Shown one piece after another: positions 19,582-31,387 of a stretch of DNA of 64,000 bases (its first letter is position 1; each line of letters opens with the position of its first letter). The DNA comes from Clostridioides difficile CD160 (GTDB lineage Bacteria > Bacillota > Clostridia > Peptostreptococcales > Peptostreptococcaceae). The stretch is from positions 1 through 64,000 of the forward strand of contig NZ_AVHW01000048.1 in NCBI RefSeq assembly GCF_000449425.2. The letters are read 5' to 3'. The notes beneath the pieces were generated by a model. That model ran no database searches. It was not told the DNA's origin and was given only the letters and a program-made list of their open reading frames with translations. Made by a program: the position numbers and the translations under genes.

Positions 19582-20847
19582 ATGCCTTTAGCAGATAAAA
19601 TAAGACCAAAAACAATGAATGATGTAATAGGTCAAAGTCATATAATAGGTAATGGCAAAATATTGTCTAAGATATTACAATCTAATTTTTTACCAAATAT
19701 GATATTTTTTGGTCCTCCAGGTGTTGGTAAAACCACAGTAGCAGAAATAATAGCAGAAAAAAGCAATAAAAATTTCTATAAAATAAATGCTACGAATTCA
19801 TCTCTAGAAGATATAAAAAAGGTAATATCAGAACTTGGAAGTATAAATAATATAAATGGAGTTTTGTTATATATAGATGAAATACAAAGCTTTAATAAAA
19901 AACAACAACAATCAATATTAGAATTTATGGAAAATGGAAGTATAACCTTAATTGCTAGTACCACAGAAAATCCATACCATTATGTGTATAAAGCTCTTTT
20001 AAGCAGGTCTACTGTGTTTGAATTTAAACCTTTAGAGAAGTTTGATATAGAAAAAGGTTTGGAAAGAGCTATTGAAGTATTAAATGAAGAAAGTTATATG
20101 GATATTGAATGTAATAAGGATGCAATTGAAGATATAGCTATTCTTTCTGATGGAGATATGAGAAGAGCTTTGAATATTTTGGAAATGGTAGTTTATTCAA
20201 CTAAACCAAATAAAGATAATATAACTCATATAGATTCAGATGTAATACAGTCATCTACCTTTAATAAGATTATAAACTATGATAAAAATGGTGATAGTCA
20301 TTATGACATTTTAAGTGCATTTCAAAAATCTATAAGAGGAAGTGACCCTCAAGCGTCTATACATTATCTAGCAAGACTTATAAAAGGTGGAGATTTGATA
20401 AGTATATGTAGAAGACTTTTGGTAATAGCAAGTGAAGATATAGGTTTAGCTTACCCAAATGCTATTATGATTGTAAAGGCATGTGTAGATTCAGCTATGC
20501 AACTTGGATTTCCAGAAGCAAAAATACCACTGGCAGAAGCTACTATTCTTTTAGCTACATCTCCAAAATCTAATTCTGCATGTATAGCAATAATGAAAGC
20601 TATGGATGAATTGGATAAAGAGTTTGTTAAGGACATACCAAACAGTATAAAAGATGCACATTATTCTGGTTCTAAAGATATAGGTAGAGGTTGTGGGTAC
20701 AAATATCCTCATAACTTTAAAAATCATTATGTAAAGCAACAGTATTTACCAGATAGTATAAAAGATAGTATCTACTACATACCACAAGAAAATAAAACTG
20801 AGACAAATATAAAGAAATATTTAGAATATCTAGATAGTGATTTTTAA
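19582..20847 (+). CDS. rarA: Replication-associated recombination protein RarA (MgsA family AAA+ ATPase)
   Basis: A 421-residue clamp-loader-like ATPase that acts at stalled replication forks. LADKIRPKTMNDVIGQSHIIG opens the protein as in all RarA/WRNIP1 members, followed by Walker A GPPGVGKT (44-51), Walker B LLYIDEIQSF, sensor 1 IASTTENPYH and the C-terminal tetramerisation domain (SIRGSDPQASIHYLARLI, ASEDIGLAYPNA). The ATG follows AAAAAAGGAGTGAGGAG. It is monocistronic or grouped with the GNAT gene 30 bases downstream. Confidence 0.93.
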   Translation: MPLADKIRPKTMNDVIGQSHIIGNGKILSKILQSNFLPNMIFFGPPGVGKTTVAEIIAEKSNKNFYKINATNSSLEDIKKVISELGSINNINGVLLYIDEIQSFNKKQQQSILEFMENGSITLIASTTENPYHYVYKALLSRSTVFEFKPLEKFDIEKGLERAIEVLNEESYMDIECNKDAIEDIAILSDGDMRRALNILEMVVYSTKPNKDNITHIDSDVIQSSTFNKIINYDKNGDSHYDILSAFQKSIRGSDPQASIHYLARLIKGGDLISICRRLLVIASEDIGLAYPNAIMIVKACVDSAMQLGFPEAKIPLAEATILLATSPKSNSACIAIMKAMDELDKEFVKDIPNSIKDAHYSGSKDIGRGCGYKYPHNFKNHYVKQQYLPDSIKDSIYYIPQENKTETNIKKYLEYLDSDF

Positions 20848-20877
20848 ACTGAACGTTATGTATCGGGGGTAGATATT

Positions 20878-21648
20878 ATGATTATAAGACTTAATTCAAC
20901 TTACCATAGTAGAGTTATGAAATACTTAAAAAGAGAACCTGAGTACAATTTGTTTATAATAGGAGATATCGAAAGATATGGATATGGGCATAATTTTTTA
21001 AATATCTGGGGAGATATAGATGAAAAGGGTGAGATAAGGGCAATATTACTTAAATATTTTGAGTTTATGATGTTTTATTCTGATGGAGAATATGATGTTG
21101 AAGGTTTTTATAATCTACTTTGTAATACTAATTATGAAGAAATTTCTGGTAAAATATGTGTTGTAGGAGCTTTAGCTAATAGATTGGGACTTAATAATTT
21201 AAAGACAGTTGATTTTTGTAAACTTCAAACTAGAAAGTTTTTGGTGGATAATAACTGTAGTGAAAAGATAAAAAAGATTAGGCTGGGAAATCTTAAAAAG
21301 ACAGTAAGACTTTATGATTTGATAGATGAATTTCACAGTACGACTTTAGATAATTTAAAAAATGGATTGAGGACAGGTAGAGGGTATTGTATAGAGATTA
21401 ACAAACAAGTAGTATCCATGGCAAAGAGTACTTCAGAAAATAAAACTCATGCAATGATAATTGGAGTAGGTACACATCCAAAGTATAGAGCTAGAGGACT
21501 TGCTACAAAGTGCCTTATTAAACTATGTTCAGAACTCCTAAGAGAAAATAAAATACCTTGTTTGTTTTATGATAATGAAGAAGCTGGAAAGATATATAAA
21601 AAGCTAGGATTTGAGAACATTGGAAAATGGGGTATTTATTCAAAATAA
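20878..21648 (+). CDS. GNAT family N-acetyltransferase, two-domain
   Basis: A 256-residue protein. The C-terminal half is a GNAT domain with acetyl-CoA motif A (GVGTHPKYRARGLATKCL, about residues 200-217) and a following motif B (YKKLGFENIGKWGI). The N-terminal half is a second, degenerate GNAT-like domain as in FR47-type enzymes. The substrate is unknown. The start follows GGGGG. It is 30 bases downstream of rarA and probably shares its transcript. Confidence 0.78.
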   Translation: MIIRLNSTYHSRVMKYLKREPEYNLFIIGDIERYGYGHNFLNIWGDIDEKGEIRAILLKYFEFMMFYSDGEYDVEGFYNLLCNTNYEEISGKICVVGALANRLGLNNLKTVDFCKLQTRKFLVDNNCSEKIKKIRLGNLKKTVRLYDLIDEFHSTTLDNLKNGLRTGRGYCIEINKQVVSMAKSTSENKTHAMIIGVGTHPKYRARGLATKCLIKLCSELLRENKIPCLFYDNEEAGKIYKKLGFENIGKWGIYSK

Positions 21649-21665
21649 AAAATTTCAAATTAATC

Positions 21666-21720
21666 TTGACAAAATTAGTAGGGTATAATAAAATTATGTT
21701 GAAAGTAATTCCTACTAAAT
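21666..21720 (+). promoter_or_regulatory. isc operon promoter with flanking dyad
   Basis: TTGACA (21666-21671) and TAAAAT (21689-21694) are 17 bases apart. AATTAGTAGG (21673-21682), in the spacer, pairs with CCTACTAAAT (21711-21720) with one mismatch, so a dyad brackets the -10 and start site. This placement suits autorepression by the Rrf2-family IscR encoded next. The exact TATAAT at 21684-21689 is only 12 bases from the -35 and is not the likely -10. Confidence 0.6.
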
Positions 21721-21757
21721 CAGTATGAATTAGATTTCTATATAGAGGTGATAATAT

Positions 21758-22204
21758 ATGAAGTTGTCTACGAAAGGTAGATATGGATTAAAAGCAATGT
21801 TTGAATTAGCATTAAATCAAGATAATGGACCAGTATCATTAAAATTTATTGCTAAGAAACAGAAAATATCAGATCAGTACTTAGAACAAATATTTTCATC
21901 TTTAAAAAAATCAGGTCTAGTAAAAAGTGTAAGAGGTGCTCAAGGAGGATATTTGCTTTCAAAGAATGCTGAAGACATAACAGTAGGTGATATACTTGTA
22001 GTATTAGAAGGACCAGTTGCATTGTCTGACTGTGTACTAGATGAAGATGTATGTGAAAACTCAAACATGTGTGTAACGAAAATAGTTTGGGAAAAGATGA
22101 AAAAGGGTATAGAAGATGTTATAGATTCAATTACTCTAAAAGATATGATAAATGACTATAACAAAAATAAATTAGAAAATGATATAACAAATATTAAAAA
22201 ATAG
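21758..22204 (+). CDS. iscR: Rrf2-family Fe-S regulator IscR
   Basis: A 148-residue winged-helix regulator. The N-terminal MKLSTKGRYGLKAM and the recognition region ISDQYLEQIFSSLKKSGLVKSVRGAQGGY are classic Rrf2/IscR, and C92, C99 and C105 match the spacing of the IscR cluster-ligating cysteines. In the holo form such proteins repress Fe-S assembly genes. It starts the isc operon, 17 bases before iscS, behind a promoter with a dyad that could be its own site. Confidence 0.92.
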   Translation: MKLSTKGRYGLKAMFELALNQDNGPVSLKFIAKKQKISDQYLEQIFSSLKKSGLVKSVRGAQGGYLLSKNAEDITVGDILVVLEGPVALSDCVLDEDVCENSNMCVTKIVWEKMKKGIEDVIDSITLKDMINDYNKNKLENDITNIKK

Positions 22205-22221
22205 ATTTGGAGATGAATGTA

Positions 22222-23415
22222 ATGGAAAAAAGAAGATTGTATATGGATTATTCTGCAACAACACCTGTTAAAAAAGAAGTATTAGATGCAATGATGCCAT
22301 ACTTAACAGATTATTTTGGTAATGCATCTAGTTTTCACACATTCGGAAGAGAAGCAAAAGATGCATTAGATAAAGCAAGAGAACAAGTAGCAGACCTTAT
22401 AAACGCTGAACCTAGTGAAGTGTATTTTACAGCTGGTGGTTCAGAAAGTGACAACTGGACATTAGAAGGTGTAGCTTATGCTAATAAAAATAAAGGCAAT
22501 CATATAATAACTTCAAAGATAGAGCACCATGCGATACTTCATACATGTGAATACTTAGCAAAACATCACGGATTTGAAATAACTTATTTGGATGTTGATA
22601 GTGAAGGAAAAGTAGATTTAAAGGAATTAGAAGATTCCATAAAAGATACTACTATACTTATAAGTATAATGTTTGCAAATAATGAAATAGGAACTATACA
22701 ACCTATTAAAGAAATATCTGAGATAGCTAAAAAACACAAGATATTATTCCACACTGATGCAGTACAAGCTACAGGTAATATTCCAGTAGATGTTAAAGAA
22801 CTAGGAATAGACTTGATGAGTATGTCTTCACATAAAATATATGGACCAAAGGGTGTAGGAGCTTTATACATAAGAAAAGGTGTAAGACTTCATAACTTTG
22901 TTCATGGTGGAGCACAAGAAAAAAGTAAAAGAGCTGGTACAGAGAATATACCTGCAATAGTTGGATATGGAAAAGCAGCAGAATTAGCTAAAGCAAATAT
23001 GCAAAATCATGTAGAGACTTTAACTCGTCTTAGAAATAAGCTAATAGATGGTGTGTTAGAAAGAATACCTTATACAAGAATAAATGGTAGTTTAGAAAAT
23101 AGACTTCCAGGAAATGCAAACTTTGCATTTCAATTTATAGAAGGTGAAGGAATACTTTTATTATTAGATATGCTAGGAATTGCTGGTTCAAGCGGTTCTG
23201 CTTGTACTTCTGGTTCATTAGACCCTTCACATGTACTTCTTGCAATAGGTTTACCACATGAAATAGCACATGGTTCATTAAGACTTACAGTTGGAGATTT
23301 TACAACAGATGATGATATAGATTATATATTAGAGAATTTACCAAATGTTATAGAAAGACTTAGAAGTATGTCACCACTTTATGATGATGCGAAGAAACAA
23401 GGCTTAGTAAAGTAG
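22222..23415 (+). CDS. iscS: Cysteine desulfurase IscS
   Basis: A 397-residue PLP-dependent enzyme that removes sulfur from cysteine and passes it as persulfide to the scaffold protein and to tRNA thiolation enzymes. The PLP lysine lies in SSHKIYGPKG, the PLP-contacting histidine in EHHAILH, and the mobile active-site cysteine in GSACTSGS. The ATG at 22222 is chosen because GGAG lies 10 bases upstream; an ATG at 22213 lies almost on top of it. Besides iscU, MnmA encoded nearby is a likely sulfur acceptor. Confidence 0.95.
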   Translation: MEKRRLYMDYSATTPVKKEVLDAMMPYLTDYFGNASSFHTFGREAKDALDKAREQVADLINAEPSEVYFTAGGSESDNWTLEGVAYANKNKGNHIITSKIEHHAILHTCEYLAKHHGFEITYLDVDSEGKVDLKELEDSIKDTTILISIMFANNEIGTIQPIKEISEIAKKHKILFHTDAVQATGNIPVDVKELGIDLMSMSSHKIYGPKGVGALYIRKGVRLHNFVHGGAQEKSKRAGTENIPAIVGYGKAAELAKANMQNHVETLTRLRNKLIDGVLERIPYTRINGSLENRLPGNANFAFQFIEGEGILLLLDMLGIAGSSGSACTSGSLDPSHVLLAIGLPHEIAHGSLRLTVGDFTTDDDIDYILENLPNVIERLRSMSPLYDDAKKQGLVK

Positions 23416-23468
23416 ACAGAGAGATAAAACATAAAAAATAGACATAAATTGAGTAGGAGGAAAAAATA

Positions 23469-23909
23469 ATGCAATATAGTGATAAAGTTATGGAACATTT
23501 TATGAATCCAAGAAATATGGGAGAAATTGATAATGCAAGTGGTGTAGGTGAAGTTGGAAACCCTACATGTGGAGATATAATGAAGATATTTTTAGACATA
23601 GAAGGAGACATAATCAAGGATGTTAAGTTTAAGACATTTGGCTGTGGTTCAGCTATAGCAAGTTCTTCTATGGCAACTGAAATGATAAAAGGTAAAACTA
23701 TAGCAGATGCATTAGAACTTACAAATAAAGCTGTTGCTGAAGCTTTAGATGGTTTACCACCAGTAAAGATGCATTGTTCAGTTTTAGCAGAACAAGCTGT
23801 AAAAGCAGCTCTTATAGATTATGCTCAAAAGAATAATATTCATATACCAGAATTAGATGGATATGTTATAGATGATGCTCATGACCATGATGTTGAGGAA
23901 GAAGAATAA
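23469..23909 (+). CDS. iscU: Fe-S cluster scaffold protein IscU/NifU N-terminal type
   Basis: A 146-residue scaffold on which Fe-S clusters are built from IscS-derived sulfur. The three ligand cysteines are C34 (PTCGD, with the exchange-promoting aspartate D36), C59 (FGCGSAIASSS) and C103 (MHCSVLAEQA). It ends in a His/Asp/Glu-rich tail (HDHDVEEEE) not essential in the family. AGGAGG precedes the ATG. It is the last gene of the isc operon and is followed by the hairpin discussed for the downstream surface-protein gene. The symbol nifU is also in use for this gene. Confidence 0.94.
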   Translation: MQYSDKVMEHFMNPRNMGEIDNASGVGEVGNPTCGDIMKIFLDIEGDIIKDVKFKTFGCGSAIASSSMATEMIKGKTIADALELTNKAVAEALDGLPPVKMHCSVLAEQAVKAALIDYAQKNNIHIPELDGYVIDDAHDHDVEEEE

Positions 23910-23937
23910 AAATAAGGAATAATTTTCCAAAAATTGG

Positions 23938-23966
23938 TTTAAAACAATTTTAAAAAAGTGTATAAT
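23938..23966 (+). promoter_or_regulatory. Possible promoter reading into the switch region
   Basis: TTTAAA (23938-23943) and TATAAT (23961-23966) are 17 bases apart. The -10 is perfect, the -35 matches at three of six positions. Transcription would begin near 23973, ten bases before the left repeat of the candidate invertible element, and continue towards the surface-protein gene. Confidence 0.4.
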
Positions 23967-23982
23967 GATGTAGTAAAGAAAA

Positions 23983-24197
23983 ATAGCCGTTTTCACGAAA
24001 ATGGCTATTTTTTATTGCCAAGATTCCTTGTTTTAACCCGTTTTATAAATTAATTTAATAATAAAAAATATACACTTCTATAATCTCTAAACAATAAGAA
24101 TATAATAAATCCCAGCAAATCAATCGTTTAGAAGGTTTTCATATATAAATATATTTTCAAAGAAATTATCTAAAAATGCTATTTTCGTGAAAAAGGC
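23983..24197. repeat. Candidate invertible DNA switch with inverted recombination-like sites
   Basis: The left site (23983-24008) is ATAGCC-G-TTTTC, centre AC, GAAAA-T-GGCTAT, a 12-bp hairpin followed by TTTTT (24009-24013). The right site (24178-24197) is GC-TA-TTTTC, centre GT, GAAAA-A-GGC. The reverse complement of the left site matches the right over 20-21 bases with two mismatches; aligned directly there are five mismatches, including both centre bases. The centres are about 194 bp apart. The segment between holds no gene, only AT-rich sequence with weak -10-like elements on both strands. In the orientation given, the left site is an intrinsic terminator; inversion would replace its right arm with GAAAATAGCATTTTTA and shorten the stem to about six contiguous pairs. 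An alternative reading is simply an iscU terminator with a diverged copy. Confidence 0.55.
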
Positions 24198-24234
24198 ACA
24201 TTTCAAATTAAAAACACTATTAGGGGGAAAAATT

Positions 24235-27069
24235 ATGAAAGTACCAAAGAAAATAGCAGCAATTCTTACTATATCATTAGTAGTTAGCAGTGTAACAGTA
24301 GGCATATCAAATGCTCAAACGAACAGTGACACACTTAAAGGTTCTGGTAGATGGGAGACTGCTATACAAATAAGTAAAAAAGGATGGGATACATCTAAAA
24401 ATGTAATATTAGTAAATGATAATACTATAGTGGATGCATTGACTGCAACTCCTTTTGCAAGTTCTAAAAATGCACCAATTCTTTTAACACAAAATAATAA
24501 ATTAGATGATAGAACGAAGGCTGAAATAATAAGATTAAAAGCCGAAAAAGTATACTTAATAGGTGGAGTAAAAACTCTGGGTTCAGAAGTAGAAGCTCAA
24601 TTAAAATCTCTAAAAATTGATACAGAAAGAATATCTGGAAATGATAGGTATCAAACATCTTTAGAATTAGCTAAAAAATTAGATGAATCTCTTGGAAGAA
24701 AAACTACTAGTAATATTTCAAAAATAGTTGTTGTTAATGGTGAAAAAGGTCTAGCTGACGCAGTAAGTGTAGGAGCAGCAGCAGCTCAAAATAAAATGCC
24801 AATAATACTTTCTAGTCCAAATGAGGGTATAAAATTATCGAGTCAATTTATAAAAGATAAAGGTATAAAAACATCTTATGTAATTGGTGGTGTAAAGTCA
24901 ATCTCAGAAGCAACAAAAAATACTTTACCTAGTCCTAAAAGATTGTCAGGAAATGATAGAAATGAAACTAATGCTGCTGTTATAAGAGGTCTATACGAGA
25001 CAAAAGAGTTGAAAAATGCATATATAACAAAAGATGGTATGAATAAACAAGGTGACCTTATAGACTCACTAGCAGTAGGTTCACTAGCAGCAAAAAATAA
25101 TTCTCCAGTAGTTTTAGTTGGAAACAAGTTAAATAAAGAACAAGAAAAAGTATTGAATACTAAAAGCTTAAAAACAATCACACAGGTTGGAGGCTCAGGT
25201 AATGAAAATGCTTTTTCTGAAATAAAAAAATCACAATCTACAACAGTATATGAAGTTAAAAACTTAGAAGAATTAAAAACAGCCTTAGTTAAGGCTGATG
25301 CAAATGATGTTATAAATGTTAAGCCATCAGGAACTATATCAAATGATTTATCATTAAGTACTAATAATTCAATTTCTGTAAATTTAAACGGTACATATAC
25401 AGGGACTATAGTAGTAACTGCTCCAAATGCAGATATAGTTAATAAAGGGACAATAAGTAAAGTATTAGTTAAAGACAGTAAAGGTGGAACAATAATAAAT
25501 GAAAGTGGAGCAAAAATAGAAAAAGTAGAGATACAAAATAATTCTAGTAATGTTGTAGTTAAGAATAATGGTAAAATAACAAATATAAAAAATGATGCAA
25601 CAGGAACAAATATAAAAAATGAAGGAACAATAACTGATAAAGTAGAAGGTTCTCAGAGTCCAAGTATAGATGGTACTAAACCAGGTGGAAGTTCATCTGG
25701 AGGTTCTTCATCAAGTGGAGGTAGTTCAGGTGGTGGTTCGTCTGTAAAAGACAAATTGATAACATCAATAACAGCACTTGAAGATTCAATAAAAATTCAA
25801 AATGTAGAAAATGGAACAGAGTTAAGCAGACTAAACTTACCAAAAGAGCTATCAGCAACAGTATCTGGAGTAGCTAATACTAAAGTAGGGGTAACCTGGA
25901 AAAGTACACCAGAGTATAGTCCTACAACATCAGGAACATATGTATTCAAGGCCAATTTAGCAAATGGATATAAACTATCAGAAGGATTATCACTACCAAG
26001 TATTACAGTAAAAGTAGCTGAACCTGTTAAAGTTGAGACAATAAAAATTAATAATACTGCTACATTAGAAAAAGCACTTGATTTACAAGAAGATGGTCAA
26101 ATATGGGAAATAGATGGACAAATAAATGTCGAAAAGCCAATTGTTATAAATAAAAAAATAATTATAAATGGCATTAATGATGCTGAGCTAATAAAATCTG
26201 CAGAATTTACTGATACTATACCAGGATATGAAAATATAGTGACGTTAGACAGAATAGATAATGTAGAAATAAACAATCTAAAAGTAACTGGTTTAGATTC
26301 TGATAGGATAAATAAATCAGGAATGCATGTTTATTTATCAAAAAATATTAAATTAAATAATGTAACTTTGAATAACAATAAGGGTGCAGGTCTAATAGTA
26401 AATGGCTCATCAGTAACAGCTTCAAATCTTAGAACAAGTGGAAATGGATGGTATGGAGTAAATGTAGAATATGTAAAAGCTGATGGAGTTGCAAGTGAAA
26501 CTAACGCAAACTTAACTTTGACAGATAATTGTAATATAAGTGAATATACTCCAATACAAACAGATAATTATGATAAAGATAAAGTTGTTGTTAATGGATT
26601 TGGAGAGTGTAAACTATCACAAGATTCAAAAACTGCTACTTGGGGCAAAGCTTCTATCACTATGAATGAACTTGTTAATATAACACAAGAAAATAAAATA
26701 GATGAAAATCAAGATGGTAGTATACCTAAATTTGAAAATACTGAAAATAGAACACCAGTAGAGATTACGCTAAACAAAGGTAAAAATGATTATCAGAATG
26801 TAAGAGTAAAAATAAAAGAGGAAGATGGTTCAGCAGGTTTAGGTGGAATACAATTAATTGCCAAAGATAGCAATGGAAATTGGTTTAACATAGTAAACAC
26901 AGGATGGGGTCCAATGGAAGGATTTTCATTACAAGATGCAACAACACCAGTTTATCTAGTTGGAAATACAGAAGGTACTTATAAAGTAAAAATACAGCTA
27001 GTTGATGTTAGTAATTCTAATAAAATAATAACAGAAACAACAGCATCAGTAGATGTAGTTAAGAATTAG
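24235..27069 (+). CDS. Cell-wall-anchored surface protein with three CWB2 repeats and beta-helix region
   Basis: A 944-residue exported protein. A signal peptide (1-27, cut after SNA) is followed by three CWB2 (PF04122) repeats at about 34-132, 133-236 and 237-335, with RISGNDRYQT and RLSGNDRNET marking repeat starts; these anchor C. difficile cell-wall proteins to the anionic polymer PSII. Residues 336-478 are short Asn/Gly/Val repeats suggesting a beta-solenoid. A Gly/Ser linker (about 481-503) leads to an Ig-like domain (about 505-600), a right-handed beta-helix-like region (about 615-770) and a C-terminal beta domain. The ATG at 24235 follows AGGGGG; an upstream in-frame start at 24187 lies inside the right repeat and is rejected. 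Function is unknown; adhesion or immune-exposed variability is inference. Confidence 0.88.
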   Translation: MKVPKKIAAILTISLVVSSVTVGISNAQTNSDTLKGSGRWETAIQISKKGWDTSKNVILVNDNTIVDALTATPFASSKNAPILLTQNNKLDDRTKAEIIRLKAEKVYLIGGVKTLGSEVEAQLKSLKIDTERISGNDRYQTSLELAKKLDESLGRKTTSNISKIVVVNGEKGLADAVSVGAAAAQNKMPIILSSPNEGIKLSSQFIKDKGIKTSYVIGGVKSISEATKNTLPSPKRLSGNDRNETNAAVIRGLYETKELKNAYITKDGMNKQGDLIDSLAVGSLAAKNNSPVVLVGNKLNKEQEKVLNTKSLKTITQVGGSGNENAFSEIKKSQSTTVYEVKNLEELKTALVKADANDVINVKPSGTISNDLSLSTNNSISVNLNGTYTGTIVVTAPNADIVNKGTISKVLVKDSKGGTIINESGAKIEKVEIQNNSSNVVVKNNGKITNIKNDATGTNIKNEGTITDKVEGSQSPSIDGTKPGGSSSGGSSSSGGSSGGGSSVKDKLITSITALEDSIKIQNVENGTELSRLNLPKELSATVSGVANTKVGVTWKSTPEYSPTTSGTYVFKANLANGYKLSEGLSLPSITVKVAEPVKVETIKINNTATLEKALDLQEDGQIWEIDGQINVEKPIVINKKIIINGINDAELIKSAEFTDTIPGYENIVTLDRIDNVEINNLKVTGLDSDRINKSGMHVYLSKNIKLNNVTLNNNKGAGLIVNGSSVTASNLRTSGNGWYGVNVEYVKADGVASETNANLTLTDNCNISEYTPIQTDNYDKDKVVVNGFGECKLSQDSKTATWGKASITMNELVNITQENKIDENQDGSIPKFENTENRTPVEITLNKGKNDYQNVRVKIKEEDGSAGLGGIQLIAKDSNGNWFNIVNTGWGPMEGFSLQDATTPVYLVGNTEGTYKVKIQLVDVSNSNKIITETTASVDVVKN

Positions 27070-27130
27070 TAAATAAAAAATTAACCTTAAATCTTTTAAA
27101 ATTACTTAATAATATTATTTTTTTTAGAAA

Positions 27131-27183
27131 ATAGAGCAAGCTATATTTTAAATAAATACAATGCTTGCTCTATATGGTATAAT
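27131..27183 (+). promoter_or_regulatory. mnmA extended -10 promoter beside a dyad
   Basis: ATAGAGCAAGC (27131-27141) pairs with GCTTGCTCTAT (27163-27173) around 21 bases. No T run follows, so it is a poor plus-strand terminator for the surface-protein gene. Directly after it, TGGTATAAT (27175-27183) is a perfect extended -10 that should drive mnmA from about 27190. The right arm occupies the -35/-10 spacer, so the dyad may be regulatory. Confidence 0.45.
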
Positions 27184-27218
27184 AATAAGTAATGCAAAAG
27201 ATGAGGTGAAATTTGTTT

Positions 27219-28298
27219 ATGAATAAAAAAGTAATGATAGGTATGAGTGGAGGAGTGGATAGCTCTGTAGCTGCATATCTTTTAAAACAACAAGGTTATG
27301 ATGTCATTGGTGTTACTATGAAATTGTGGCAAGATGATGACGATGTTGAAAATGAAGGTGGTTGTTGCTCTTTATCAGCAGTTGAAGATGCTAGAAGAGT
27401 AGCAAATAAAATAGGTATACCATTTTATGTTCTAAATTTTAGAGAAGTATTTAAAGAAAAAGTAATAGATTATTTTATAGATGAATATTTAGAAGGAAAA
27501 ACTCCTAATCCTTGTATAGCTTGTAATAAGCATATAAAATTTAATGATTTTTATAAGAAAGCTAGACAAATAGGTTGTGATTATGTGGCTACAGGTCACT
27601 ATGCAAAGATAGAAAAGGATGAAAGTACAGGAAGATATTTGCTAAAAAAATCTGTTACGGATAAAAAAGACCAAACTTATGCACTTTATAATCTTACACA
27701 AGAACAACTAGAACATACTTTATTGCCAATAGGTGATTATGAAAAAGATAGAGTAAGAGAAATTGCTAAAGAAATGGGAATGGCAGTCCACAATAAGCCT
27801 GATAGTCAGGAAATTTGTTTTGTTAAAGATAATGACTATGCAAATTATGTAAAAAAACATTCTAAAAAGCGTATTGAAGAAGGTTTTTTTGTAGATACTA
27901 AAGGAAATATACTTGGAAAACACAAGGGTATACTATACTATACAATAGGTCAAAGAAAAGGTCTTGGAATTACCTTTGGGAAACCAATGTTTGTAATAGA
28001 TATAAATCCAATAAATAATACTATAATTCTTGGAGATAATGAAGAATTGTTTAAAAAAGAACTTATTGCAAAAGATGTTAACTTTATATCAATAAATAAA
28101 TTAGAAGAACCACTAAGAGTTCAAGCAAAAATAAGATATTCAGCAAAACCATCACCAGCGACTATTCACAAAATAGGAGAAGATACTATTAAAATAGTTT
28201 TTGATGAAGCTCAAAGGGCTATTACTAAAGGTCAATCTGTAGTAATGTATGATGGAGACCTTGTAGTAGGTGGAGGAATAATCGAGAAAAGTTTATAA
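27219..28298 (+). CDS. mnmA: tRNA-specific 2-thiouridylase MnmA
   Basis: A 359-residue enzyme that thiolates U34 of tRNAs for Lys, Glu and Gln using ATP and sulfur relayed from cysteine desulfurase. The PP-loop motif GMSGGVDSS is at 8-16; the catalytic cysteines are C99 in NPCIAC and C200 in [10 protein letters not shown]. The ATG at 27219 sits 10 bases after GAGGTG; an in-frame TTG at 27213 is closer and cannot be excluded. The proximity to iscS is functional, since IscS-type enzymes supply the sulfur, although a surface-protein gene now separates them. Confidence 0.95.
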
Positions 28299-28390
28299 AA
28301 ACATCTAAAAAATTAAAAAAATAAACAATAAAGTATATTAAAGTGGAATAAAGTTTATAAAATAAATTTATTGTATATGGAAATATAGTA

Positions 28391-28708
28391 TTGATTAATT
28401 TTGTAAAATTTAGTAATATAATTAGTATATTAATTAAAAAGCAAATACAGTGATAAGGAATAGTAAAATATTTGATGTCTTACAGAGAGAGGGAAAATGC
28501 TGGAAGCCCTTAGAATACAATATTTGAAGCAGCCTTTTAGTAGCAATCTTGAACAATTTATATTATGTAAAGAATATATAAGTAGAGATTGACGGTAGTT
28601 ACGTTATAGCTAAGGTTTTCCGAAGATATCATAGTTTTTATGATAATTAGGGTGGTACCGCGATTGTCCTCGCCCCTATAAATTTATTTATAGGGACGAG
28701 GTTTTTTA
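28391..28708 (+). promoter_or_regulatory. Alanine T-box riboswitch upstream of alaS
   Basis: The T-box sequence AGGGTGGTACCGCG is at 28649-28662 and is followed by a terminator stem (28668-28682 with 28687-28700) and a T run to 28707. Stem I shows the conserved AGAGAGGG and GCTGGAAG elements (28485-28507). The 3' side of the specifier loop reads GAAGCAGCC, placing an alanine codon GCA at 28529-28531. The residue after TGG in the antiterminator bulge is T, which pairs with the A discriminator base of bacterial tRNA-Ala. A promoter (TTGATT 28391-28396, 17 bases, TAATAT 28414-28419) starts it. Uncharged tRNA-Ala should allow read-through into alaS. Confidence 0.92.
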
Positions 28709-28747
28709 TTTAAACGAAAAAATAAAATTTATTAGGAGGAACATAAT

Positions 28748-31387
28748 ATGGAAAAGATGGGATTAAACGAAATAAGAAGTAAGTTTTTAGATTTTTTTGA
28801 GTCAAAAGGTCATTATGTAGCAAATAGTTATTCTTTAGTACCAAACAATGACAAGAGTTTATTACTTATAAATTCAGGTATGGCACCTTTGAAAAACTAT
28901 TTTTCAGGTGTAGAAGTACCTCCAAATGTAAGAATGTGTACATCTCAGAAATGTATAAGAACAGGAGATATAGAAAATGTAGGTATAACTGCAAGACACG
29001 CTACATTCTTTGAAATGATGGGTAACTTTTCATTTGGAGATTACTTTAAAAGAGAATCAATTAAATGGGGATGGGAATTTGTTACAGAATGGTTAAATAT
29101 ACCAGAAGATAAGATTTGGGTAACTGTATATGAAGAAGATGATGATTCTTATGATATATGGGCAAAAGAAATGAATTTCCCAGAAGAAAGAATGGTTAGA
29201 CTTGGGAAAGATGATAATTTCTGGGAAATAGGTACAGGTCCTTGTGGTCCTTGTTCAGAAATTTATTTCGATAGAGGAGAAGAGTATGGATGTGATAATC
29301 CAGATTGTAAACCAGGCTGTGATTGTGATAGATATTTGGAATTTTGGAACCATGTATTTACTCAATTTGATAGAGATGAAGAAGGAAACTATAGCTTATT
29401 AGAAAGTAAAAATATAGATACAGGTATGGGTCTTGAAAGAATGGGATGTATCATGCAAGGAGTTGATACTATCTTTGAAGTAGATACAATTAAGTCTATA
29501 TTAGAAGCAGTTGAGAAATTAACAGGAGTAAAATATGGAGAGAATCCAAAAAATGATATATCACTAAGAATAATAACTGACCATATAAGGGCTGTAACGT
29601 TCTTAGTTAGCGATGGAGTACTTCCATCAAATGAAGGAAGAGGATATGTTCTTAGAAGACTTCTTAGACGTGCTGCTCGTCATGGTAAATTATTAGGTGT
29701 AAAAGAATTATTTTTACAGAAACTAATAGATGAAGTTATAAAAGTAAATGATAAAGCATATCCAGTTTTAGTTGAAAAAGAAAGCTATATTAAAAAAGTA
29801 GTTGGTATAGAAGAAGAAAAATTCAATGAAACTATAGACCAAGGAACAGAAATATTAAATTCTTATATAGAAGTATTAAAAAGTGAAGGAAAAACTGTTT
29901 TAAGTGGTCAAGAAGCCTTTAAATTATATGATACTTATGGTTTCCCAATAGACTTGACTAAAGAAATCTTAGAAGAAGAACATTTATCTGTAGATGAAGA
30001 AGCTTTTAATGAAGAAATGGAAAAACAAAAAGAAAGAGCTAGAAATGCGAGAGGAAATATGGATGGAGAAAGTTGGAAGGAAGACCCTCTATCAAAATTA
30101 GAATCTACAGTTGATAGTATGTTTAATGGATATACTGAAATATATGGAGAAGGAATTATTGAAGCTATAGTTAAAGACGATGAGTTAGTTCAAAGTGCAA
30201 AAGAAGGCGATAAGGTATCTATAGTACTAGACAATACTACTTTCTATCCTGAAGGTGGAGGACAAGTTGGAGATTGTGGATTAATAACTAATGAAAACCT
30301 AGTTGTAGAAGTACTAAATACTAAAAAAGGAGCTAATAATAGTATAAAACATATAGGTGTAATAAAATCAGGAAAAATAAGCAATGGAGATAAAGTGAAG
30401 ACACTGGTAGATGGAGAAATTAGAATGGCAGCTGCAAGAAATCACAGTGCTACGCATTTACTTCATAAGGCATTAAAAGAAGTATTAGGAGACCATGTTA
30501 ATCAAGCTGGTTCTTTAGTTACTCCAGAAAGACTTAGATTTGATATTACTCACTTTGAAGCTATATCAAATGAAGAATTAAAAGTAATAGAAGAAAAAGT
30601 AAATAATGTTATTTTAGCGTCTTTAGACATAAAATGTGATATTATGAATATAAAGGAAGCTAAAGAAAAAGGAGCTACAGCACTATTTGGTGAAAAATAT
30701 GGTGATGAGGTAAGAGTAGTTTCTATGGGAGATTATTCTACAGAACTTTGTGGAGGAACTCATTTGACAAATACTTCTCAAGTAGGAATGTTCAAGATAT
30801 TATCTGAAGGTGGAGTAGCAGCAGGTGTAAGAAGAATAGAAGCAATAACAGGAAAAGCTGTTTATGAATATCTAAAAGAAAGAGACGGTATTATCTCTGA
30901 AGTTTGTGTAAGCTTAAAATCTAAGGAAGATAATTTAATTCAAAGAATAAGCTCTTTATTAGAAGAGAATAAAAATTTATCTAAAGAATTACATGATATG
31001 AAAGCTAAGATGAGTTTACAATCAGCTGATTCTATTTTTGATTCTAAAGTTGAAGTAAATGGAGTTAATTTAATAACTAATAAATTTGAAGGTATGGACA
31101 TGGATACACTAAGAGAAACAGCAGATAATCTAAGAGATAAGCTTGGTTCTGGTGTAGTGGTACTAGCAAATGTAGTAGATGATAAAGTTAACTTTGTAGT
31201 TACTGCCACTAAAGATGTATTAGACAAGGGAATACATTCAGGTAATATTGTTAGAGAAGTTGCAAAAATAGCTGGAGGAAAAGGTGGTGGAAGACCTAAT
31301 ATGGCACAAGCAGGAGCTAGTGATGTATCTAAGGTTGACCAAGCTTTAAGCTATGCAAGTGAGGTTATTAAGACACAAGTTAAATAA
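28748..31387 (+). CDS. alaS: Alanine--tRNA ligase
   Basis: An 879-residue class II aminoacyl-tRNA synthetase. The N-terminal catalytic core has motif 1 region RSKFLDFFESKGH, motif 2 with RTGDIENVG and TARHATFFEMMGNFSFG, and motif 3 GMGLERM. The editing domain carries HSATHLLH and the zinc-binding CGGTH. The C-terminal DHHA1-like domain ends with GGKGGGRPNMAQAG. AGGAGG precedes the ATG. Expression is controlled by the alanine T-box directly upstream. The following gene ireB starts 24 bases later. Confidence 0.98.
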   Translation: MEKMGLNEIRSKFLDFFESKGHYVANSYSLVPNNDKSLLLINSGMAPLKNYFSGVEVPPNVRMCTSQKCIRTGDIENVGITARHATFFEMMGNFSFGDYFKRESIKWGWEFVTEWLNIPEDKIWVTVYEEDDDSYDIWAKEMNFPEERMVRLGKDDNFWEIGTGPCGPCSEIYFDRGEEYGCDNPDCKPGCDCDRYLEFWNHVFTQFDRDEEGNYSLLESKNIDTGMGLERMGCIMQGVDTIFEVDTIKSILEAVEKLTGVKYGENPKNDISLRIITDHIRAVTFLVSDGVLPSNEGRGYVLRRLLRRAARHGKLLGVKELFLQKLIDEVIKVNDKAYPVLVEKESYIKKVVGIEEEKFNETIDQGTEILNSYIEVLKSEGKTVLSGQEAFKLYDTYGFPIDLTKEILEEEHLSVDEEAFNEEMEKQKERARNARGNMDGESWKEDPLSKLESTVDSMFNGYTEIYGEGIIEAIVKDDELVQSAKEGDKVSIVLDNTTFYPEGGGQVGDCGLITNENLVVEVLNTKKGANNSIKHIGVIKSGKISNGDKVKTLVDGEIRMAAARNHSATHLLHKALKEVLGDHVNQAGSLVTPERLRFDITHFEAISNEELKVIEEKVNNVILASLDIKCDIMNIKEAKEKGATALFGEKYGDEVRVVSMGDYSTELCGGTHLTNTSQVGMFKILSEGGVAAGVRRIEAITGKAVYEYLKERDGIISEVCVSLKSKEDNLIQRISSLLEENKNLSKELHDMKAKMSLQSADSIFDSKVEVNGVNLITNKFEGMDMDTLRETADNLRDKLGSGVVVLANVVDDKVNFVVTATKDVLDKGIHSGNIVREVAKIAGGKGGGRPNMAQAGASDVSKVDQALSYASEVIKTQVK

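Follow-up and report, generated by a model that had tools for sequence, protein, structure and literature searches.

The spacer between iscU and the gene for a CWB2 cell-wall protein in Clostridioides difficile CD160 holds two short repeats in opposite orientation, and it raises the question whether these repeats bound a DNA segment that can invert and thereby switch the surface protein on and off. The spacer lies in a stretch of 64,000 nucleotides (contig NZ_AVHW01000048.1, positions 1 to 64,000), called the window in the following, in which we take the gene order to be iscR-iscS-iscU, the candidate region, a gene for a CWB2 protein of 944 amino acids, mnmA and alaS, with names given by homology. 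Coordinates are those of the window and features lie on the plus strand unless stated otherwise. The segment 23996-24187 (192 bp, no strand assigned) is probably a site-specific inversion and termination switch of the cwpV type, assembled here in the OFF state, and we put the probability of this reading at roughly 70%. It draws on the anatomy of the sites, their conservation, a concerted difference in the site cores and the loss of a terminator upon in-silico inversion; from these we infer inversion in cells, the enzyme, the promoter used and an expression that follows orientation.

Transcription would start at an outer promoter (23938-23966) or arrive as read-through from iscU. A transcript started near 23973 would run into a hairpin almost at once, and the same hairpin would also stop the read-through from iscU. 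In the present orientation transcription would end at the hairpin and T run of the left site, leaving the surface-protein gene OFF. A recombinase, probably of the tyrosine type, would exchange strands in the core common to both sites. Upon inversion the left hairpin would receive the inner arm of the right site and lose its stem and T run, and transcription could then continue across the inverted DNA and reach the gene (ON).

The left repeat arm (23986-24011) and the right repeat arm (24172-24197, minus strand) are complementary at 22 of 26 positions (85%), with 160 nucleotides between them. In a 20-base core 18 positions match, and 13 bases (23990-24002 and 24181-24193) are identical. No other inverted pair with at least 18 of 20 matches at a spacing of 120-330 nucleotides is found in the window, and 18/20 was reached in one of 1,000 dinucleotide shuffles of 23910-24234; a chance repeat was rejected on this uniqueness and on the shuffles. 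The site centre is asymmetric, with AC on the left and GT on the right. Thus, the two sites of about 20 bases with two mismatches and an oriented centre that had been proposed in a preliminary description of this DNA are present, and the spacing of about 194 bp between centres given there is right in its order, the exact figure being 192 bp when the cut is placed at the site centres. With its location between iscU and the CWB2 gene, the pair shows the layout of a cwpV-type switch, in which imperfect inverted repeats of about 20 bp flank some 150-230 bp of intergenic DNA.

To follow the locus across the genus we used eight Clostridioides genomes, that of the window (G000; 4.76 Mb in 114 contigs) and seven others. 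Four of them (G000, G001, G002 and G004), termed carriers here, have the CWB2 gene and both sites adjoining iscU, and the other four are non-carriers. The left site (23979-24012) is the terminator of iscU (23469-23909; an open reading frame for an iron-sulphur scaffold protein, the last of the iscR-iscS-iscU run). Its hairpin has 15 pairs, one of them G-U, a loop of four bases and a T run that overlaps the 3´ arm of the stem; the preliminary description had seen the hairpin and the T run, with 12 pairs instead of 15. Its energy in a search for stems with an adjoining T run is -12.6 kcal/mol in G000 and G002, -13.8 in G001 and -16.5 in G004. Inversion exchanges the right arm of this hairpin, as had been predicted. 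When the segment was inverted in silico, the terminator at the left junction was gone in G000 and G002 and was reduced to -1.7 kcal/mol in G001 and -3.2 in G004, so that in all four carriers a terminator is predicted for one orientation only. The inverted right junction of G004 gains a new hairpin with a T run (-6.8 kcal/mol), which could lower ON expression in that genome.

The frames of iscS and iscU keep the same order in all seven other genomes, but the CWB2 gene and the site pair occur together in exactly four of the eight, next to iscU. In non-carriers the iscU terminator is followed by an ordinary spacer and then by mnmA, and no protein in these genomes exceeds 59% identity to the query half. 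All four non-carriers have a hairpin at the position of the left site with a shorter and different loop. The left site is therefore an old terminator, and a loop that matches the right site is seen only in genomes with the gene. Aligned to the empty spacer between iscU and mnmA of non-carriers, the locus can be followed up to 24106, 24164 or 24186 depending on the genome, the last part of the alignment being gappy, and close identity returns at about 27115. Non-carriers thus lack a cassette of approximately 24107-27115 with the right site, the leader and the gene; its left edge is uncertain, and the right site is either inside it or at its border. The preliminary description had the switch layout right; that the left site is the terminator of iscU, and that half of the genus lacks the cassette, had escaped it. 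In a tree of iscS and iscU the non-carrier G005 is placed among the carriers (support 0.91-0.98). Plain vertical descent of the cassette is disfavoured by this position, and at least one loss or transfer of the cassette is likely.

The two sites also vary together. The left core reads TTTTCACGAAAA in G000 and G002 and is found reversed in their right core, while G001 and G004 have TTTTAAAGAAAA at both sites, so that the two carrier lineages differ by CAC versus AAA, alike in both copies. Around the right arm (24172-24203) 30 of 32 columns are invariant in the four carriers, compared with 110/159 in the interior and 9/16 just downstream (Fisher p 0.004 each, with borders chosen after the alignment had been viewed). 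The two varying columns are exactly the partners, base for base, of the changed left-core bases. Taken by themselves, the hairpins contain no two-sided change. This is the outcome that exchange between two recombination sites would be expected to leave, and it supports the switch reading. The same holds for the presence of the pair only with the gene, for the conservation of the arms above their surroundings and for the loss or near loss of the terminator in four of four carriers, and the proposal that had been made from the letters of this DNA is supported in this respect.

The cwpV gene provides a positive control within the genus. Its switch (Cdi1, Emerson et al. 2009) lies between promoter and CWB2 gene and is bounded by imperfect inverted repeats of about 20 bp at a distance of some 190-230 bp, its left repeat overlaps a predicted intrinsic terminator in one orientation only, its right repeat lies near the ribosome-binding site, and its protein has a Ser/Gly linker. 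All of this has a counterpart in the window, where the promoter is a putative one and the ribosome-binding site AGGGGG is at 24222-24227. The two differ in that the window switch sits between iscU and mnmA with a left repeat that stems from the terminator of the housekeeping operon upstream, in that its gene is found in only four of eight genomes, in that inversion is a prediction here, and in that the CWB2 part of the protein is not firmly grouped with CwpV. The preliminary description had drawn this parallel, and the same anatomy was indeed found at cwpV in six genomes (the carriers G000 and G001 included); termination at cwpV, which it took as established, is a model proposed from predicted RNA structures (PMC2784873; here and below, published reports are cited for the parts of them that were covered).

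The cwpV loci came from G000, G001, G003, G005, G006 and G007, and none was among the loci fetched from G002 and G004. They were identified by the published CwpV cleavage sequence TFVNY (PMC3080850), which is present in four of the six, the other two having TFINY. Published cwpV repeats are 21 bp long, 57 bp before the start and 195 bp apart (PMC2784873); G000 has an interior of 203 bp and 56 nucleotides between the end of the right repeat and the ATG. Among 76 CWB2 matches in the genus, 30 loci were fetched (four of the window type, six cwpV and 20 others). Repeats with at least 17/20 matches lie upstream of all four window-type genes and of five of the six cwpV genes (weaker in G001), and no such pair was found upstream of the 20 other loci (L041, L044-L062; for L059-L062 the stretch is not surely a leader). 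The inverted-pair arrangement is not general in the CWB2 family. In-silico inversion removed or weakened the cwpV terminator in G000, G001, G005 and G007 and created one in G006, whose locus (L037) is assembled in the inverted (ON) orientation, unlike the five other cwpV loci. G003 has a weak terminator as assembled (-4.1 kcal/mol) and none when inverted, and five of the six loci thus behave as expected. The G003 locus (L039) combines an OFF-type interior with a left arm reading GGATAC like the right arm, not GGCTAC, and a weak stem; possibly this reflects arm conversion or a mixture in the assembly.

Could the locus be explained without any inversion? The left site would then be a plain iscU terminator and the right site a hairpin of the leader RNA, their likeness coming from RNA pairing or from a common binding protein. 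All four non-carriers have a terminator-like hairpin without the gene, the right arm can form a hairpin of its own (85% of its alignment cells paired), the left and right arms are able to pair along most of the 26 positions, and the inverted assembly is not seen among the four carriers. Still, transcription would presumably be terminated by the left hairpin before it reaches the right arm, and regulation of this hairpin by pairing between the two would not be easy. Only the carriers have a left loop that matches the right core, the loop of non-carriers being different, and the concerted change falls into the terminator loop, where the function of a hairpin demands little. With no Rfam match up to E = 1 and a layout that is the same as at cwpV, we regard an explanation without inversion as unlikely.

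A second alternative concerns the promoter. The TATAAT hexamer at 23961-23966, already named in the preliminary description, has TTTAAA 17 nucleotides upstream and is part of a promoter-like sequence (23938-23966, 10/12 matches to consensus) outside the predicted invertible segment. This hexamer is invariant in the four carriers, as are 26 of the 29 columns of 23938-23966, and the four non-carriers have a one-base gap in it. In an inversion switch working the other way round, the gene would now be driven from a promoter within the segment (ON) and inversion would turn this promoter away. Promoter-like sites facing the gene do exist inside, at 24055-24084 (TTAATA-18-TATAAT, 10/12) and at 24033-24062 and 24127-24155 (9/12), and in C. 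difficile the promoters of the cmr and pdcB switches are internal (PMC9286219). However, the inner TATAAT (24079-24084) is not conserved, being CATAAT in G004 and CATGAT in G001, and the eight promoter-like matches in the region compare with 5.3 (sd 2.5) expected from shuffles. We therefore hold an inner promoter to be improbable. Since the outer TATAAT is conserved in carriers and the inner site at 24055-24084 is not, the segment most likely acts after initiation, like the model proposed for cwpV.

A former switch that is now locked one way, a reading that partly overlaps with the others, likewise seems a slim prospect to us. Comparison of orientation across strains, which had been suggested as a check, found the site pair in four of four carriers and the opposite orientation in none of the four assemblies. 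Fixed arm differences are also seen in the carriers, namely GCCG versus GCCT and TGGC versus TAGC, except for CGGC in G004. Against a lock stand the concerted core difference and the conservation of the right arm, which point to exchange or constraint after the lineages had separated. Moreover, only about 5% of cultured cells express cwpV (PMC2784873), so that four OFF assemblies are no surprise.

Further candidates were set aside: a dispersed repeat or miniature inverted-repeat transposable element was rejected, because the 20-base site pattern (up to one mismatch) occurs at exactly two places in each of the four carriers and nowhere in the four non-carriers; for a riboswitch or other known RNA, a comparison of the stretch 20000-30000 with Rfam (up to E = 1) left the site without a match and gave only a T-box before alaS; and for a phage or plasmid origin the switch DNA had no match in phage or plasmid collections and the C-terminal part of the protein none in phages (E 1e-5). 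The T-box leader (RF00230) before alaS lies at 28441-28680.

Several observations weigh against the cwpV-type switch. Both arms are near-palindromic and AT-rich, which makes chance matches easier. The concerted core change supports exchange and does not prove it, since the covariation comes from one lineage split (two genomes against two) and its score was reached by 17 of 500 shuffles. The left hairpin is missing from the output of a simple consensus terminator scan of the region, probably as its T run was taken for part of a long A-T stem. The outer promoter is not wholly specific to carriers, as a further TATAAT follows a few bases downstream in the non-carriers G005 and G006. The segment has the same orientation in all four carrier assemblies, and termination is a proposed model even for cwpV itself. 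In sequence the repeats resemble the cwpV and flagellar repeats of G000 no more than expected by chance (a shared motif is not claimed, the best matches being reached by at least 46 of 500 shuffles), and the 16 tyrosine-recombinase matches of G000 all lie on contigs other than that of the window (C47; serine recombinases were not sought). Hence no enzyme is implied by the sites or their surroundings.

Tyrosine-recombinase matches number 9 to 16 per genome in the genus. A short one (a 193-codon frame) is present in all eight genomes, was read in six, and is a candidate for RecV. Counted from the first ATG in G000, the tyrosine likely to be catalytic is residue 170, whereas the catalytic residue published for RecV is Tyr176 (PMC3080850), and its identity as RecV is therefore unproven. 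Among the known inversion switches of C. difficile, which range in size from 154 to 230 bp (PMC5903667), cmrRST (Cdi6) and pdcB (Cdi2) depend on RecV wholly and partly, respectively (PMC5903667). They differ from the proposed switch in having an invertible promoter (PMC9286219), the better conserved promoter-like site of the window being outside the segment. The flagellar switch (Cdi4) is alike in its 21-bp inverted repeats, which flank 154 bp in a leader (PMC5386303), and shares control after initiation with our proposal (PMC9286219); it differs in being reportedly Rho-mediated (PMC7446863). Its repeats were found in several of the genus genomes, and upstream of flgB in G001 (L096) and G004 (L097) they were not found by pattern or inverted-repeat scan. 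The seven switches of strain R20291 do not include the iscU-mnmA locus in the part of the report covered (PMC5903667), and a review puts the number of inversion sites at eight, with no list of them in the part covered (PMC10889297). We found no report of this switch and no published switch list for cryptic Clostridioides lineages. Within that limit, the window would hold a second switch of the cwpV type that is new to the literature covered.

The gene that the switch would control (24235-27069) encodes a CWB2 protein, as had been stated, with three CWB2 stretches (PF04122) and one Big_4 domain in Pfam. A signal peptide, recognised by eye, is followed by the three CWB2 stretches, a middle domain, a Ser/Gly linker (residues 484-503, 25684-25743, seen by comparison across CWB2 loci) and Big_4 with an unassigned C-terminal region. 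The linker is present in the four orthologues and the six cwpV genes and in none of the 20 other CWB2 loci, some of whose proteins are covered in part, and a CWB2 anchor followed by such a linker is the build of the CwpV family. The TFVNY cleavage site is absent from the four orthologues, and the C-terminal coding DNA (25600-27069) contains no tandem repeat. In a tree of the CWB2 region the orthologues form their own clade (100/100), which is weakly joined with other CWB2 paralogues (80/49) and not with cwpV, the deep forks being poorly supported. A close CwpV paralogue, considered for a 52% match and the linker, was dropped, since this tree gives no support and the middle domain matches 27 of 30 CWB2 proteins (the window protein included). 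The protein thus appears to have a CwpV-like frame and is not classed as CwpV. In the C-terminal region three orthologues are 79-88% identical to the window protein, and outside the genus weak partial matches were found in two of 55 family genomes searched. An AlphaFold model of this region is poor (mean predicted local distance difference test score, pLDDT, 60). In G015, from another genus, a gene with a similar start (L009) and C-terminal stretch (L110) lies near a contig end, with a leader that can hardly be read.

How might such a switch have come about? Tentatively, and with more doubt than confidence, we suggest that the isc terminator became a recombination site when the surface-protein cassette settled beside it. 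The flip to ON would then remove the stop of the isc operon and couple the surface protein to isc transcription, a recombinase of a specificity undescribed in the genus may act, and switches of the cwpV type would have arisen more than once by terminator capture.

In the literature covered, making and breaking an intrinsic terminator by inversion has been proposed for cwpV alone. If the reading is true, the locus would be a second case with unlike repeats in close relatives of the C. difficile strains studied, and the logic would be reusable. It would also allow recognition by the recombinases to be approached by comparison, given that the published switch repeats are mostly unrelated in sequence (PMC5386303; PMC5903667). 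Furthermore, it would indicate how a switch of this kind can originate, with a terminator already in place becoming one of the recombination sites, and it would add a candidate ON/OFF surface protein for the carrier strains.

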